From Armatimonadota bacterium (GTDB lineage: Bacteria; Armatimonadota; UBA5829; DTJY01): a stretch of 38,013 bases of DNA. The notes below the pieces were generated by a model. That model was not told where the DNA came from. It saw only the letters and a program-made list of their open reading frames with translations, and ran no database searches. Of this stretch, positions 19,720 through 25,935 are shown one piece after another. Both the position numbers and the translations under genes were made by a program. The stretch spans positions 1-38,013 of the forward strand of contig JAIMAU010000018.1 of assembly GCA_023511795.1 (NCBI GenBank), written 5' to 3'. Numbering within the stretch: the first letter of the stretch is position 1; each line of letters starts with the position of its first letter.

Positions 19720-20508
19720 ATGAAGTTTATAGACTGTCACGTTCACTGTTTCCCTGATTCTCTTGCTGAAAAGGCCGTTGCGAACCTCGCAGAAGCCTAT
19801 AAACTCCAACCGTCCTTCAATGGCACAATAGCCGGCTTGCTCCGCCAGATGGATGAAATGGGAATACAAGCCTCGTTCATCCAATGTGTCGCAACAAAGT
19901 CGTCACAGGTGCCATCAATCAATAACTGGCTGGCGGAGGTTAAAAGCGAACGGCTGGTCCCATTCGGCGCAATACATCCTGACTTCCCAAATCCCGAAAC
20001 CGAACTCTGCCGGATGCGTAAGCTTGGAATTAAAGGAATCAAACTGCATGGAAACTGGCAGGGGTTTCGACCGGATGACAAGCGCATGATTCCAATCTAC
20101 CAGGCCGCTCAAGAGAACTTTATAATCTATTTCCATGCAGGTGGCGAAATTGTGGATAGCTTGGAGGTGCTTGCCACCCCTAAAGCGCTTGGTAATGTTC
20201 GGCGGATGTTTCCCAGCCTCAGGATGGTTTGCGCTCACATGGGCGGATACAAAATGTGGAATGAAGTTGAGAAACACCTTCTTGGAACCGATGTCTACTT
20301 CGATATGTCATACTGCTTCCCTAGGGATATGCCGGATGACCAGATGGTTAAATATATCCGCATGCACGGCGCAGAAAAGATACTCTTCGGCAGTGACTCT
20401 CCTTGCGGCCACCCGAAGCCCCAAATAGATAGACTTCTGTCGCTCCCTATCACCGATGAAGAAAAAGAGCTTATTGCTTGGAAGAATGCAGTACAGTTGC
20501 TCTCTTAA
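19720..20508 (+). CDS. Amidohydrolase 2-family metal-dependent hydrolase
   Basis: The 262-residue TIM-barrel protein begins MKFIDCHVHCF, with the metal-binding DxHxH motif at residues 5-9, followed by GIKLHGNWQGF, the His in IYFHAGGE, the His in VCAHMGG and the Asp in LFGSDSPCG. This order matches amidohydrolase family 2, which includes decarboxylases of aromatic acids and other hydrolases; the substrate is unknown. The ATG at 19720 is chosen over an in-frame TTG nine codons earlier because AGAAGGA lies about 8 bases before it and the conserved motif begins at once. It stands alone on the plus strand. Confidence 0.88.
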   Translation: MKFIDCHVHCFPDSLAEKAVANLAEAYKLQPSFNGTIAGLLRQMDEMGIQASFIQCVATKSSQVPSINNWLAEVKSERLVPFGAIHPDFPNPETELCRMRKLGIKGIKLHGNWQGFRPDDKRMIPIYQAAQENFIIYFHAGGEIVDSLEVLATPKALGNVRRMFPSLRMVCAHMGGYKMWNEVEKHLLGTDVYFDMSYCFPRDMPDDQMVKYIRMHGAEKILFGSDSPCGHPKPQIDRLLSLPITDEEKELIAWKNAVQLLS

Positions 20509-20723: not shown

Positions 20724-21548
20724 TTAATTTGAACTTGCTCCGAGAAGGGGCAAATATCGCTTTGACTTCACCAATAAAGCAGGTATTAGCAACAAGATAA
20801 TCATAACTGCGGTTACGGTTGCACCGGTAGGCAAATCAAACCTGTAAGACAAGTAATATCCAATTACAGCTGGAATAAGAGCGTGGGTTGGCGCTATTAA
20901 GATGGCTGTTTTCATTCTCCTAGCCAAAGCAAGCGCGGCCGCCCCTGGGACTACCAGAAAAGCAAAAGTTACCAACGTGCCTACGGACCTTATGCTAACT
21001 GCCACAGCCACGCCAAGAGTTAAGAATATAATCGCATCAATTAATCTCACCTTGACACCCTGGGACGCGGCTGTTTCTGGGTCAAACGAGCTGAAAATGA
21101 ACTCCTTAAAACATAGCCAATGGACTACTCCAATGGCAAGGAATACTCCAAGCATTAACCACACATCCGCAACGTCAACGCCAATAACGCATCCAGTCAA
21201 AATATCTAGCATGTGCGCCTCGCCCGAACCCAAATGAATAAGCAAAACCCCAAGTGCGCCAGCTAGTGCATAACCTATACCAACACCAGCCTCCTGGGGA
21301 ACACCACGCCTCGCTCTTATGCTAAATATTCCTACTCCCCCAAGCACAAAAGCCAATGAGCCTATAACAGGATTTAGTCCTAAAAGCAAGGCTGCAGCAA
21401 TTCCCGCAGAACTTACTTCTGCTAATGCGGCCCCTAGGAACACCACTCTTTTCAGAATAACAAATATTCCAAGGTAGCCGCACGTAAGGCCTGTCAATAC
21501 CAAAGCAATTAACGGCATTCTAAGAATATTATCTGTGAAAATTTCCAC
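20724..21548 (-). CDS. znuB: Zinc/manganese-type ABC transporter permease
   Basis: This is the membrane subunit of a metal ABC importer, about 274 residues with roughly eight hydrophobic helices in the ZnuB/MntB (ABC-3) arrangement. It carries the LKRVVFLGAALAEVS cytoplasmic loop that docks the ATPase and the SIRSVGTLVTFAFLVVPGA segment. I start at the GTG at 21548 because AGGAGG lies 6 bases before it. An upstream ATG at 21578 would add ten basic residues and has no ribosome site. It is last in the operon, after the ATPase gene. Confidence 0.92.
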   Translation of the reverse strand: MEIFTDNILRMPLIALVLTGLTCGYLGIFVILKRVVFLGAALAEVSSAGIAAALLLGLNPVIGSLAFVLGGVGIFSIRARRGVPQEAGVGIGYALAGALGVLLIHLGSGEAHMLDILTGCVIGVDVADVWLMLGVFLAIGVVHWLCFKEFIFSSFDPETAASQGVKVRLIDAIIFLTLGVAVAVSIRSVGTLVTFAFLVVPGAAALALARRMKTAILIAPTHALIPAVIGYYLSYRFDLPTGATVTAVMIILLLIPALLVKSKRYLPLLGASSN

Positions 21549-21597
21549 CTGTTTCCTCCTGTGTCGAACCAAGCTCATCGCTTAAAAACTGAAGATG

Positions 21598-22332
21598 CTA
21601 AAACACAAACCTGTGTCCGTTGATTTCACCTACCTGCACCTCAATACCATAAAGACGGGTTAAGTTCTCAGCTGTAACAGCTGTTTCGATAGGTTCGAGC
21701 TTAAATGTGCTTTCCTCAACAAAACCAATAGTTTCCACATAGTTAACTACATGGTGAAGCAGATGGCTTGCTACGACCACTGTCAAATTTCGTTTGTCAT
21801 GCAGCCGTTTTAGGAGATCCATTATGCTTCTCTGACCAGCCACGTCCAAGTCAGTGGTTGGCTCATCCAAAATCAGAACATTTGGTTCGCCAGCCAGTGC
21901 TCTAGCAATGAGAACTCTTTGCTTTTGTCCACCTGAAAGATCTCGAAAGAGGGAATCTGCTAGGGAGCCCACTCCCGCCTGCTCTAACGCAGTCAGAGCT
22001 GCTTGCCAATCTCTGGGCTTTGCACGACGTCCGAACCCAATCAGACGCCATCTTCCCATGAGCACAACATCCAGGACAGAAAGTGGAAAGGCATCATCTG
22101 GAGACTGGCGCTGGGGTACGTATCCGAACTTGATGTTCTTGCTGTAAGTAATCTGGCCTCTAATGGGAGAAAGCATCCCTAGCATTCCCTTTAGAAGTGT
22201 GGTTTTTCCAACTCCGTTTGGACCTATTATGCCCACAAAATCGCCTTCCTTTATAGCGAAGTCTAAAGCAGTAAGTATTGGTATCCCATCATAACCAAGG
22301 TCAACATCTTTGAATCGGATTATTTCTTTCAT
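21598..22332 (-). CDS. znuC: Zinc/manganese-type ABC transporter ATP-binding protein
   Basis: The cytosolic ATPase subunit has Walker A GPNGVGKTT, Q-loop YVPQR, signature LSGGQKQR and Walker B VLILDEPTTDLD. The chosen ATG at 22332 gives 244 residues, begins at the conserved IIRFKDVDLGYDG strand and has a GAGG site 5-6 bases upstream. Longer starts would run into the solute-binding protein gene. The 3' gap to the permease gene is about 49 bases. Zinc versus manganese cannot be decided from this subunit. Confidence 0.93.
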   Translation of the reverse strand: MKEIIRFKDVDLGYDGIPILTALDFAIKEGDFVGIIGPNGVGKTTLLKGMLGMLSPIRGQITYSKNIKFGYVPQRQSPDDAFPLSVLDVVLMGRWRLIGFGRRAKPRDWQAALTALEQAGVGSLADSLFRDLSGGQKQRVLIARALAGEPNVLILDEPTTDLDVAGQRSIMDLLKRLHDKRNLTVVVASHLLHHVVNYVETIGFVEESTFKLEPIETAVTAENLTRLYGIEVQVGEINGHRFVF

Positions 22333-22340
22333 AAGAACCT

Positions 22341-23243
22341 CTACTTTAGTGCATCGGCTATCTTGTTCACAATATAATCCATCATTTTGATATAGGAATC
22401 TGCGCCTTTGACCGCCCCTACTTCGTAGGGTAGCACACATATCTCAGCACCAGTCTCCTTTGCGATTAACTTTGGAAACTTCTGAGGATAGAATGTCTCC
22501 ATCATGATGACCTTTACTTTCTCCCGTTTCATTGCGCGAATAAGCTTGCTGACGTGCGAAGGCGAAGGAGGTATCCCTGGTTTTGGTTCAATTGTACCAG
22601 CATCTTCGAGGCCAAAACGTCCGGTAAAATAAATCCAGCTTTTGTGGTAGGTTACAACAGGTTGGCCTTTAAATGGCCGAAGAATGCCTCCCCATTTATT
22701 TATCGCTGAGTCAAGTTCACTAAGAAATCGGTTATAGTTACTTCGGAATTTATTCTCATCTTTTGGCGATACCCGAATAAGGCCTCCCAAAATATTCCTT
22801 GCCACAATTTTTGCATTCTCTGGGTCGAGAAGATAGTGAGGATTCCCCAGCGGATGAATTTCCCCCATAGACATATCTATTTTTCCAGCGGGCACTTCAC
22901 GCTTCTTTATACCGAGAGAGGCATCTACATAACCAGGACCTCCCTGAACAATTTTCTTATTGCGTGCGCTGTCTATCAACGGCCGCATCCACTGGTCGAA
23001 ACCCATTCCGTAGACCACGACAACATCGGCATCCTTCAACTTAGTAATGAAACTGGGTCTAGGTTCTACAAAATGAATGTCTTCGGTAGGTCTGGCAAGG
23101 CTGGTAACACTCACCAAGTCACCGCCGATATTGCGAGTGATATCCGCAAGGTTTGATGCAGATGTAACAACTTTTATCTTCGCATATGAAGGTACCGCAA
23201 GTATGATTGTCAAAAGGAGCAAAGAAATTACTCTTATTTTCAT
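22341..23243 (-). CDS. znuA: Periplasmic metal-binding protein of a Zn/Mn-type ABC importer
   Basis: This cluster A-I solute-binding protein delivers a divalent metal to the ABC permease. The ATG at 23243 gives a 300-residue precursor with a signal peptide ending PSYA. AGGAGGG lies about 8 bases upstream. Likely ligands are the His in DIHFVEP, the His in NPHYLLDP, the His in VTYHKSW and the acidic residue near METFYPQ. The mobile His-rich loop found in many ZnuA proteins is missing; instead a His-rich loop is in the neighbouring barrel protein. Spacing to the barrel gene is 14 bases, so they are one operon. Confidence 0.92.
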   Translation of the reverse strand: MKIRVISLLLLTIILAVPSYAKIKVVTSASNLADITRNIGGDLVSVTSLARPTEDIHFVEPRPSFITKLKDADVVVVYGMGFDQWMRPLIDSARNKKIVQGGPGYVDASLGIKKREVPAGKIDMSMGEIHPLGNPHYLLDPENAKIVARNILGGLIRVSPKDENKFRSNYNRFLSELDSAINKWGGILRPFKGQPVVTYHKSWIYFTGRFGLEDAGTIEPKPGIPPSPSHVSKLIRAMKREKVKVIMMETFYPQKFPKLIAKETGAEICVLPYEVGAVKGADSYIKMMDYIVNKIADALK

Positions 23244-23257
23244 ATTGAATCCCTCCT

Positions 23258-24490
23258 CTATTGCAGCTCGTGTGAATGTGGGCCAAGACCCCAAACAAAT
23301 TGAAGAAATGTAGATAAATAGTCGTCTGAACTATTTGAGCTTCCTTTCGTAACTTGAAGACGCATGTAGCTAGTCTCCGTAAGCCGCATGGTATAAATTG
23401 CGGAAAGACCCGAATCGTGTCCTATTTCGGGAGCAGGAAGTGAAGCCCAGTCATACCGAATGCCAACCTCATTATATTTATTAGTTCTATATGAGTAGAG
23501 TAAATAATAGCCATTGCGCGCCCCATCCCCTTCTGCCAGGCATCTCTTCTGGCGCACTGCCTCAGCTTGTAATAGTATTTGTTTGTGCGCGGCTGGCCAT
23601 GCACGGTAAGTGAGGTCTACACCATAAAGCCTGGTCTTTGGATTGCCCAAGGATTCCTCACCCTTCCCACCTGCCATGCTCATGCCGACTTCCAATTCAG
23701 CAAAATCCTGCACTGGCTTTGAAAGCCATAGCCTGCCTGTGTAGAGCCGATCATGCACTCTTATGCCTAACTCATGATGCTCAACACCTTCAGCGTGCTC
23801 ATGATGATGATGCGCCGATGGCTTCCAAATGCCAACCTCAGCCTGGCAAAAGAAATTACCTTTAAGAGGAAGCAGGTAGTTTACTTGCGCCCCCTGCCCC
23901 GTGAGTCCTTCCTCAGGATTTAGGAGATTTCTAATGGCAAAAGGCTGAGTCACGAAAGGCCATTCCTCACGGTGGGCAGGATTATTTTTTCCAAAATTAA
24001 TGAACTTTTTGCCGACATTCAAGGAAAGGTCGGTATTTCCAATTTGCAGGAACGACGCATAAGCTTCTTCCACACCAATTGAGAGTTCTTCTCCCTCAGC
24101 GGTAATAAACACGTCACCTCTAATTTGGGGGTAAAGATAGCCCTGAATCCCAAGCTCAATTCCGCGGATTTGGATTTGGTCGCGATTGGGCTCTAATTTC
24201 GTTGTGCTAATAGTTCCCAAGGTATCAACAATGATACTTATATCAGGCAAAAGCTTTTCGTTGCCGGTAGGTTGGATTGGCTGAGGACTGATTTCCTCAG
24301 GAGCTAGTTCGGTAACTTCAGATTTGTCCTCTACAAGATCCTTGATTTGATTCTCCAGCTCCTCGATTCTTTGTTCAAGGCTCTGAACTTGTTGCTCATA
24401 TTCCCGGCTAACGTCAGAATTACCAGCCAAAGCTGGCAGGAAAGCTACGAATTGAAATAAAAGGCACAGTAGGAGCTTGCAACTATTCAA
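23258..24490 (-). CDS. Outer-membrane β-barrel protein with coiled coil and His-rich loop
   Basis: The 410-residue product has a signal peptide (about 1-22), a coiled coil (about 28-55, REYEQQVQSLEQRIEEL) and a C-terminal region rich in alternating amphipathic strands ending in aromatic residues, as in porin-like barrels. A loop at about 226-246 is packed with histidines (AHHHHEHAEGVEHHE). Placed directly upstream of a metal-binding protein and ABC importer, it is likely an outer-membrane channel or metal-capturing porin for zinc. The start is TTG at 24490, supported by AAGGAGG 8 bases upstream. I do not recognise a named family. Confidence 0.78.
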   Translation of the reverse strand: MNSCKLLLCLLFQFVAFLPALAGNSDVSREYEQQVQSLEQRIEELENQIKDLVEDKSEVTELAPEEISPQPIQPTGNEKLLPDISIIVDTLGTISTTKLEPNRDQIQIRGIELGIQGYLYPQIRGDVFITAEGEELSIGVEEAYASFLQIGNTDLSLNVGKKFINFGKNNPAHREEWPFVTQPFAIRNLLNPEEGLTGQGAQVNYLLPLKGNFFCQAEVGIWKPSAHHHHEHAEGVEHHELGIRVHDRLYTGRLWLSKPVQDFAELEVGMSMAGGKGEESLGNPKTRLYGVDLTYRAWPAAHKQILLQAEAVRQKRCLAEGDGARNGYYLLYSYRTNKYNEVGIRYDWASLPAPEIGHDSGLSAIYTMRLTETSYMRLQVTKGSSNSSDDYLSTFLQFVWGLGPHSHELQ

Positions 24491-24510
24491 TTAATGTCCC
24501 TCCTTAAAAA

Positions 24511-24561
24511 TAGTCTTCCTAATTAGCTTGTCAACTTATACGACTTGAGATTGGAAGACTA
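24511..24561 (-). repeat. Perfect 9-bp inverted repeat before the barrel gene
   Basis: TAGTCTTCC and GGAAGACTA are perfect inverted copies 33 bases apart. On the minus strand the hairpin is followed by TTTTT and then the AAGGAGG site of the barrel gene, so it looks like a weak terminator or attenuator between the small membrane protein gene and the importer operon. The long loop makes the terminator call uncertain. Confidence 0.45.
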
Positions 24562-24945
24562 CGCAGGAGGAGCCCTGGGGTTAGTTGGGGAAATATTGAG
24601 CGCTAACGGTACTTGCCAACCGTAAGGGGAAGCTTGTGAGACAGATTCAGGAAATTCAACCGAACCGACCGCAAATAAGCAATAAGAACCTGCCGCCATC
24701 AGAAACAAGCATGCTGGGCAGGAACTCGAGTCATGTCCATGAGCCGTCTTGTCTTGGGGCAAGATAACCGATTGTTCGGAATTTACTTTTGCGCAGAATG
24801 ATTGGTCATTAGGAGAACAGCATTCTAATTGGATGTGGAAAAACAGTGCCCACGACCAAGTCGAAAGAAATGTCAATACTAATAAAGCTGTTAGTATTCT
24901 TTTAATAGATTTAGCTTTCCACATGCACAACTTAGAAGTTTTCAT
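24559..24945 (-). CDS. Small Cys-rich membrane protein, DUF2946-like
   Basis: The 128-residue product has one N-terminal membrane segment (about 13-32), then paired cysteines (ECCSPND, FCAKV), a HGHDSSSCPAC metal-ligand-rich stretch, a second hydrophobic segment and the C-terminal tail NPRAPPA. This pattern, especially CPxC followed by a hydrophobic segment and a terminal RAPP, resembles DUF2946-type proteins found near metal transport genes. The ATG at 24945 is favoured because AAGGA is 9 bases upstream; the ATG at 24954 is too close to it. It lies just before the barrel-ABC operon and may bind metal at the membrane. Confidence 0.6.
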   Translation of the reverse strand: MKTSKLCMWKAKSIKRILTALLVLTFLSTWSWALFFHIQLECCSPNDQSFCAKVNSEQSVILPQDKTAHGHDSSSCPACLFLMAAGSYCLFAVGSVEFPESVSQASPYGWQVPLALNISPTNPRAPPA

Positions 24946-25010
24946 CCCTGACATTCCTTCTTGATGTGGGTTCGCCTACAACTGTTGCCTTCCTGAAATA
25001 CGCACAAACA

Positions 25011-25041: not shown

Positions 25042-25935
25042 CTATTCCTTGTTAAATTCCTCCAATTCGGCTACTTTTCGGCGCTTCATTAGCCACCGAG
25101 CACGGAATGCAAGGATAGCAAAGAACGCCATCAAGAACGAGATGGTTGCGCTCCCAAATCGAATCCACCGGTCAAAGCCATACTCATTCCAAAGATACTG
25201 CCGCCATTCTTCTTCCAGCTTTTCCGGTCGGACACCAATGCTGTATTCGAGAGCTGTAGGAAAAGGATTACCCGCCGAAAGCTCGGCAAGTAAATCAGGA
25301 ATGCACTCCGGACCGTATTTCTTTGCCATATAACCAACTATTGAGTAGCTTTCGACGTATGCAATTGCACGCTGTTTTTCATCCTGCGGAAATACATAGG
25401 AGATCCTATTAAGAGGAATAATCCTACCTGAGGTACCAATTTCTTTAAGAAGTTCAGCATCGCCGGGTGACCAATCACCTGTTAAGTATTTTGCGAGACC
25501 TTCATGCATCCATAGAGGCATTCTAGAAGTGAATGCTTTAAGCCGCCGAGAAAGAAAAACATGTGCCAATTCATGAGGAACAATGCTCTCGATTCGTGTG
25601 AAAGTATTGGAGGCATCAATTTGAACCTTCAAAGTCCGGGTATGAGCCATCCCGACAATGCTCTCATCTGGCTTTGCGCCAATTGCCTCTGCGAATGCAC
25701 GGCGATTTGGATAAAGATACACAGGTATTACGCCACCTGGGTCAAAATCAAGCTTTTCAGACAGCACCGAATGCCATTGTTCTCCAATTTTTGCCACTCT
25801 TATCCCTTTGGATCTTGCACCTGGCGAGTAATAAATGAGGAAGTGTCTAGTCCTCAAAGTCTGCCATTGTTCTTGGGCAGATAGCGAACAGGCAAAAATA
25901 AAAATAACAAGACTGACGAAGAAAATTCGTGCCAT
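25042..25935 (-). CDS. Membrane-anchored gluzincin metallopeptidase (peptidase MA-like)
   Basis: The 297-residue product has a signal peptide (about 1-20), a zinc peptidase domain with His121-Glu122-x-x-His125 (PHELAHVF) and the third ligand Glu145 (MHEGLAKYL), and a C-terminal transmembrane helix near 258-275 followed by a basic tail. The layout matches the peptidase MA family of exported gluzincins with unknown targets. The gene starts only about 70 bases after the 23S rRNA 3' end and on the same strand, so it may be transcribed partly by read-through from the rRNA operon. Confidence 0.85.
   Translation of the reverse strand: MARIFFVSLVIFIFACSLSAQEQWQTLRTRHFLIYYSPGARSKGIRVAKIGEQWHSVLSEKLDFDPGGVIPVYLYPNRRAFAEAIGAKPDESIVGMAHTRTLKVQIDASNTFTRIESIVPHELAHVFLSRRLKAFTSRMPLWMHEGLAKYLTGDWSPGDAELLKEIGTSGRIIPLNRISYVFPQDEKQRAIAYVESYSIVGYMAKKYGPECIPDLLAELSAGNPFPTALEYSIGVRPEKLEEEWRQYLWNEYGFDRWIRFGSATISFLMAFFAILAFRARWLMKRRKVAELEEFNKE

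Follow-up and report, generated by a model that had tools for sequence, protein, structure and literature searches.

The locus and its genes

We analyzed a 38,013-nucleotide stretch of DNA (the window; contig JAIMAU010000018.1 of assembly GCA_023511795.1) from an Armatimonadota bacterium, in which five genes of an apparent metal importer lie in a row on the minus strand. According to the open reading frame (ORF) list and the sequence, these are, 5' to 3', a small ORF, an outer-membrane barrel, znuA, znuC, and znuB. A first-pass annotation had described an operon of znuA-znuC-znuB together with a small CPAC protein and a barrel that has a loop rich in His, and this arrangement is present as described; both quoted motifs were found, AHHHHEHAEGVEHHE at residues 226 to 240 of the barrel and HGHDSSSCPAC at residues 72 to 82 of the small protein. 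It had overlooked, however, the C-terminal RAPP motif of the small protein and its distance from CPAC. Building on the gene order, the linkage, the leader architecture, its recurrence at a near-fixed spacing, the predicted barrel fold, and the conserved histidines, all obtained by computation, we propose that a metal-sensing, probably zinc-sensing, RAPP leader controls an outer-membrane pore and ZnuABC, with a probability of roughly 0.65. The five genes probably constitute one metal-import operon, the first gene of which would be a regulatory leader and not a part of the transport route.

The leader ORF (24559 to 24954; this and all features of the operon are on the minus strand) encodes 131 amino acids from the first ATG and contains a hydrophobic segment, His40, HGH, CPAC, and a C terminus reading NPRAPPA-stop. 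The second ATG, at 24945, is the likelier start (128 amino acids), since AAGGA stands nine bases before it, and it agrees with the boundary given in the first-pass annotation. The codons of CPAC, the proposed metal-binding pair, are at 24709 to 24720, and those of RAPP, the proposed arrest motif, at 24565 to 24576, 44 residues past CPAC. A gap of 68 nucleotides (24491 to 24558) separates the leader stop from the barrel start and contains the Shine-Dalgarno (SD) sequence AAGGAGGG at 24498 to 24505. The barrel gene (23258 to 24490) begins with TTG, preceded by AAGGAGGG; its product has a hydrophobic N terminus, by eye a signal peptide, followed by a predicted helix (residues 25 to 58) and a predicted 16-stranded domain (residues 83 to 402).

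The remaining genes encode a ZnuA-type metal-binding protein with a three-His site (22341 to 23243; Pfam ZnuA, E = 4e-57), a ZnuC/AztA-like ABC transporter ATPase (21598 to 22332; Pfam ABC_tran, E = 7e-27), and, as the last gene of the operon, a ZnuB/AztB-like permease of the ABC-3 family (20724 to 21578; Pfam ABC-3, E = 6e-45). The NCBIfam model AztA matched the ATPase at an E value of 3e-52, under its cut-off, and the binding protein missed the equivalog cut-offs of both AztC (124.6 versus 350 bits) and ZnuA (80.5 versus 268 bits). Pfam gave no name above cut-off to the barrel or the small protein. Past the operon end lies a convergent amidohydrolase gene (19720 to 20508, plus strand). A peptidase-like gene (25042 to 25935) lies just upstream, 87 bases from the small ORF and on the same strand, so that the operon promoter was not located.

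Recurrence and specificity of the proposed leader

A single-sequence search of 291 genomes of the phylum found the small protein in 2 and the barrel in 75. We describe the leader by its architecture: an ORF of 60 to 260 amino acids ending at most 900 bases upstream of the barrel, with CxxC, R[AG]PP in the last 18 residues, and 30 to 60 residues between them. CxxC, Arg, and Pro were thus selected for, but the exact spacing and His40 were not. The sample comprised 75 fetched barrel regions and the window (76 in total), of which 74 were tested, L053 and L099 having less than 500 bases upstream. Such an ORF preceded the barrel at 49 of the 74 loci, including the window and its congener. L103 and L104 were overlooked solely owing to a late start of the barrel match; with their leaders, which turned up in the background list, the corrected count is 51 of 74, spanning 20 family-level groups. 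The distance from CxxC to R[AG]PP was 42 residues in 1 ORF, 43 in 21, 44 in 22, and 45 in 7, two loci having two such ORFs. A spacing of 42 to 45 is a simple annotation signature for leaders that are mostly too divergent for single-sequence search.

Controls with the same definition gave 3 hits in 2,049 control windows and 4 among 4,554 other ORFs, three of the latter four being leaders by eye (those of L103 and L104 and a further one in L067). At the 74 upstream zones, A[AG]PP was found in none, the K, S, P, and L variants in none, and permuted motifs in 0 or 1. Together with the control windows, these counts rule out RAPP by chance. The motif is RAPP in 43 of the 49 aligned leaders and RGPP in 6, and six columns are invariant: H40, which adjoins the hydrophobic segment, C79, C82, R127, P129, and P130. 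A hydrophobic segment with a hydropathy of 1.6 or more precedes CxxC in 48 of the 49, and DUF2946 matches 9 of them at an E value of 0.1 or better (best, 4.7e-6). Two tandem leader-like ORFs were seen ahead of one barrel at L046 (the same as L118), L052, L081, and L130.

This architecture resembles that of CruR, the leader of the Bordetella pertussis bfrG operon. The CXXC of CruR (a DUF2946 protein) is needed for copper control and its RAPP for expression, with 45 residues between the two, a distance that varies by no more than one or two (PMC9426467), and CruR stalls in vitro at RAPP (PMC12992588). The window leader likewise is a small same-strand ORF directly upstream, with a CXXC-RAPP spacing of 44, judged against CruR's 45 within one or two residues, and a hydrophobic N-terminal segment (hydropathy, 1.79), the export signal being judged by hydropathy only. 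On these sequence traits, we consider it very probable that the small protein belongs to the RAPP class of regulatory leaders and likely, by analogy with CruR, that it senses metal.

The small protein had been interpreted as one layer of a three-layer zinc route. This was not supported: its conserved His, CxxC, R[AG]PP, 42- to 45-residue spacing, and position match a translation-arrest leader. A related alternative is a periplasmic or membrane metallochaperone that passes metal from the barrel to ZnuA. The hydrophobic N terminus, the His, the CxxC, and the adjoining importer would suit such a protein, but across the 49 leaders invariance is confined to H, CxxC, and R.PP, whose spacing is nearly constant, and the remaining sequence drifts; in the one genus pair, dN/dS was 0.51 for the leader (34 changes) as opposed to 0.22 for the barrel and 0.06 for znuA; and no leader was found at 23 of the 74 loci. 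We regard a metallochaperone as improbable. RAPP-like arrest peptides often precede sec or yidC genes (PMC10951233, PMC7897499, and PMC10987492), and the leader has a signal-like segment, so that it might instead be an arrest peptide monitoring Sec export that by chance precedes an exported barrel. In such a monitor, however, the conserved potential metal ligands, set at an almost constant distance from RAPP, would have no role, and no sec or yidC gene lies downstream, which makes it the least credible of the alternatives.

The leader is associated with the barrel rather than with znuA. At 20 ZnuA-family loci away from barrels in the same phylum (the upper part of the matches listed, not at barrel matches), no leader was present up to 2.7 kb upstream (about 1.4 kb at two loci). 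The third His of the binding protein is nevertheless present in all 20, and the first in 19 of the 20. Thus, the leader accompanies the outer-membrane step and not znuA alone.

Furthermore, when an alignment of seven barrels was searched against named genomes, 27 loci emerged, 14 carrying Armatimonadetes, Armatimonadota, or Abditibacteri- names, five without a phylum name, and eight named otherwise. Six of these eight have a leader with CxxC 41 to 46 residues before R[AGS]PP: L117 of a Nitrospira sp., L129, L130, and L133 of Scalindua, and L131 and L134 of Anammoxibacter. No leader was found at the two Omnitrophota barrel loci, one of which (L135) has a Fur-family gene where the leader would sit. 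In L117 (5130 to 9807), the order is a Fur-family gene, an RGPP leader, the barrel, znuA, znuC, and znuB, with 18 bases from the fur stop to the leader start; both kinds of regulator are seen there in one tight operon. The five anammox leaders (L129, L130, L131, L133, and L134) have an extra HHHH-rich stretch ahead of the CxxC that lies 41 to 43 residues from R[AGS]PP; they also have a further CxxC at a distance of about 80 residues from that R[AGS]PP.

The barrel as a candidate metal porin

The earlier claim that the barrel and ZnuABC form a unit is supported. Among the 71 loci with a tblastn barrel match, window included and five further regions without such a match left out, znuA follows the barrel on the same strand in 68; two misses are contig ends, and L095 is a true exception. 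Barrel homologues are therefore linked to metal transport genes and do not lie mostly away from them, which the first-pass annotation had named as the finding that would refute its view.

An AlphaFold2 model of the barrel (mean pLDDT, 84.2) shows the N-terminal helix at residues 25 to 58 and 16 strands, and the structure prediction that had been suggested as a check thus points to a porin. Neither Pfam nor NCBIfam names the barrel; Porin_4 weakly touches 2 of 29 relatives, Porin_O_P is not among the six families listed at an E value of 1 for the window barrel, and a sequence profile of the barrel found no porin in the PDB. VIA-align placed the phosphate porin OprP best (Z = 27.9; 300 residues; root mean square deviation, 4.5), with OprO at 27.8 and 27.6 and other porins at about 24, a structural comparison that is limited to the VIA-align list and leaves further porin families possible. 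Because other porins head the list by Foldseek E value, on which OprP is 12th, kinship to OprP is only a lead from the model. OprP and OprO share with the barrel the 16-stranded porin fold, whereas their sequence identity to it is 12 to 15% and the barrel has no Pfam porin family above cut-off; its conserved His173 and His405 and the znuA that follows at 68 of 71 loci set it further apart.

TonB-dependent receptors consist of a plug domain and a 22-stranded barrel, and ZnuD, a zinc receptor, has the plug and needs TonB. The modeled barrel has 16 strands and no plug, and no TonB-receptor Pfam family matched it. It would be a candidate for a TonB-independent, metal-selective porin, and we think it likely that it is the metal's pore in the outer membrane. 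What it would share with ZnuD, with other TonB-dependent zinc receptors, and with MspD, a zinc-induced mycobacterial porin (PMC13098993), is a role in zinc entry at the outer membrane. Similarly, the psp porins of metal-reducing deltaproteobacteria, with predicted metal uptake, include a hypothetical porin weakly like the phosphate-selective family; unlike the window barrel, they stand under Fur boxes and were proposed for iron (PMC545781), the two being compared by description and not by sequence. Our literature search found no phosphate-type porin paired with znuA; a porin has been reported for the transit of copper (PMC6011978).

Three sets of histidines were mapped on the barrel, their sides of the membrane assuming the usual porin topology. 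The AHHHHEHAEGVEHHE motif (codons at 23771 to 23815) is in loop L4, which would be extracellular; His173 (codon at 23972 to 23974) is in the long loop L3, the constriction loop by porin analogy; and His405-x-His407 (codons at 23270 to 23278), in the C-terminal GPHSHELQ, would lie on the periplasmic side. All 75 barrels have His173, whereas 74 have His405 and 56 have His407. Given a predicted porin that carries His in L4 on its outer face, in the long loop L3, and near its C terminus, an outer-membrane entry step for the metal is plausible. By contrast, the proposal that metal capture had moved to the His loop of the barrel is not supported, as L4 carries at least three His in only 23 of 75 barrels (20 among the 49 leader loci). 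The first-pass annotation was right that ZnuA of the window lacks a His-rich loop, but this is no special trait, since such a loop is missing from all 71 ZnuA proteins that were aligned from barrel loci (no more than two His per 20-residue window between ligands 1 and 2).

The probable metal and the proposed mode of control

In barrel-linked ZnuA, the three His ligands are conserved in 71, 71, and 70 of 71 proteins, and a three-His ligand set is of the zinc type. The window genome (97.6% complete) has one ZnuA-family match among the matches listed. Its one Fur-family match adjoins an ORF that is FeoA-like by eye, so that the genome may lack a dedicated Zur, the Fur family being the zinc-regulator family that was searched for. 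The genome also has two TonB matches and two TonB-receptor matches; one of the receptors (L188) stands beside ORFs that by eye are NikR-like and nickel/cobalt-transporter-like, likely a nickel route. The three-His ZnuA, the single ZnuA match, and the Fur-family genes heading the operons in L117 and the leaderless L135 argue for zinc.

Copper is the other candidate. The leader could be a CruR-like copper sensor, with an operon that answers to copper or with zinc uptake tuned by copper status, because the CXXC of CruR senses copper (PMC9426467) and Cys-bearing CutF-like proteins mostly precede copper genes (PMC9973294). Invariant His40 does not decide between the two metals. Nevertheless, none of the five genes is copper-related by Pfam, the binding protein has a three-His site, and two further lineages have a Fur-family gene in the operon; we hold a copper sensor to be unlikely and zinc the likely metal.

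In the mechanism that we propose, the leader would be translated and its hydrophobic N terminus would engage the export machinery. The ribosome would stall as RAPP arrives at the peptidyl-transferase center, with CPAC, 44 residues back, just out of the exit tunnel. Under shortage of the metal, which is most likely zinc, the ribosome would stay stalled and downstream expression would go on, yielding the porin-like barrel, which would pass metal through the outer membrane, and then ZnuA, ZnuC, and ZnuB. We infer the stalling, zinc as the ligand, the direction of the response, and coupling to Rho from these comparisons; stalling under metal scarcity, which is the sign of CruR, appears fairly likely by analogy.

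How a stall would act on the downstream genes was addressed with the RNA. The predicted accessibility of the barrel SD differed by -0.002 between native and shuffled upstream RNA (38 loci; stem-loops wholly inside the gap excluded). Masking the RNA behind the stalled ribosome raised it from 0.36 to 0.44 (44 loci), and shuffled RNA behaved alike (38 loci). A stem-loop hiding the barrel SD is therefore unsupported. In the 3' part of the leader, the excess of C over G was larger than in the barrel in 49 of 49 cases (mean skew, 0.18 versus -0.01), a composition compatible with a rut site. The lack of evidence for SD hiding and this skew weakly favor CruR-like control by Rho, which we give a slight edge over opening of the SD.

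Several findings weigh against this interpretation. No R[AG]PP leader at a spacing of 30 to 60 was found at 23 of the 74 loci even after the correction, including good barrels at L035, L066, and L077; most other leaderless loci have weakly matching barrels. Leader-like ORFs have a CxxC-to-RxPP spacing of 70 to 91 in L082, L094, L096, L098, and L102, a longer spacing to RAPP in L092, and RDPP at a spacing of 43 in L037. The CXXC leaders studied to date sense copper. DUF2946 (PF11162) matched residues 43 to 130 of the window leader with an E value of 0.036 and 15.3 bits, under its cut-off of 23.7, and on this score the leader is not filed as a member. The C-over-G skew may stem from Pro, His, Ser, and Thr codons. 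By tblastn, Fur-like genes are rare near Armatimonadota loci (seen at 1 of the 49 leader loci and at 2 of the 25 others), so that the case for zur depends on two lineages outside the phylum, and NCBIfam typed neither the L117 nor the L135 Fur-family protein as Zur. Finally, leaders of this class also precede TonB-receptor-like and prepilin-like genes, as described below, which means that the class is not zinc-only. The five loci with a spacing of 70 to 91 perhaps represent a second leader geometry.

We put at only slightly better than even odds the fuller proposal that a zinc-sensing arrest leader acts through its His and CxxC, by translation or transcription elongation, on a dedicated zinc porin and ZnuABC. 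Such leaders would be spread over Armatimonadota, Nitrospira, and the anammox bacteria; in one lineage a Fur-family repressor would stand next to the leader, and in another such a repressor would take its place.

Nascent-chain metal sensing with a ribosome stall has until now been mainly a matter of copper. Roy et al. point out that neither copper nor zinc has a known riboswitch, and they propose nascent-chain sensing for copper (PMC9426467). CruR and the window leader are alike in being small proteins with an export signal that head a metal-import operon, with an outer-membrane transporter next, and in combining CXXC with a C-terminal RAPP (spacing, 45 versus 44). They are unlike in that CruR serves copper and a TonB-dependent receptor, whereas the window has ZnuABC and a porin-like barrel and the leaders occur in other phyla; the gap to the next gene is 162 nucleotides for CruR versus 68 in the window, and the window leader falls below the DUF2946 cut-off. 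CutF, the leader of cutO in Rhodobacter capsulatus and a variant of opposite sign, is also an exported nascent metal sensor with a C-terminal Pro-rich stall-like motif, but it has CxxxC, and copper prolongs its stall, opens a stem-loop, and switches cutO on (PMC9973294). The window operon instead encodes an importer, and the RNA upstream gave no indication of concealing the barrel SD. CzcI and Caulobacter CC2720 (DUF2946), the latter before czrC, likewise connect CutF-like or DUF2946 proteins with zinc-class heavy-metal genes (PMC9973294 and PMC4176598), although they precede RND efflux genes and CzcI has no C-terminal Pro motif, unlike the RAPP leader of an import operon in the window.

A zinc-linked RAPP leader was not among the best-ranked matches of our literature search. 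The words zinc and znu are absent from the main texts of PMC9426467 (where Zn is named once, in a comment about riboswitches), PMC12992588, and PMC10987492, and zinc and znua from that of PMC9973294; a znu neighbor may be listed in the supplements. If our proposal is true, nascent-chain sensing would, with this import operon, gain zinc as a second metal and reach phyla that offer few genetic models. Armatimonadota is itself a little-studied phylum, and the operon also seems to encode its own outer-membrane pore.

Further members of the leader class were sought with a whole-genome CxxC-44-R[AG]PP pattern, which matched at least 200 of the 291 genomes and often the reversed control too. Being too noisy for counting, the pattern was used only to find further leaders, at 20 loci picked by eye (3 without a leader by script) and with neighbors named by eye. 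Leaders of the class head TonB-receptor-like operons, most with ExbB- and TonB-like genes, at L166 to L172, L175, L179, and L184. RGPP or RAPP leaders also stand ahead of prepilin-like genes at L174, L181, L182, and L185, and in three of these four, all from one genus, the gap between the leader and the prepilin-like gene is 71 bases.

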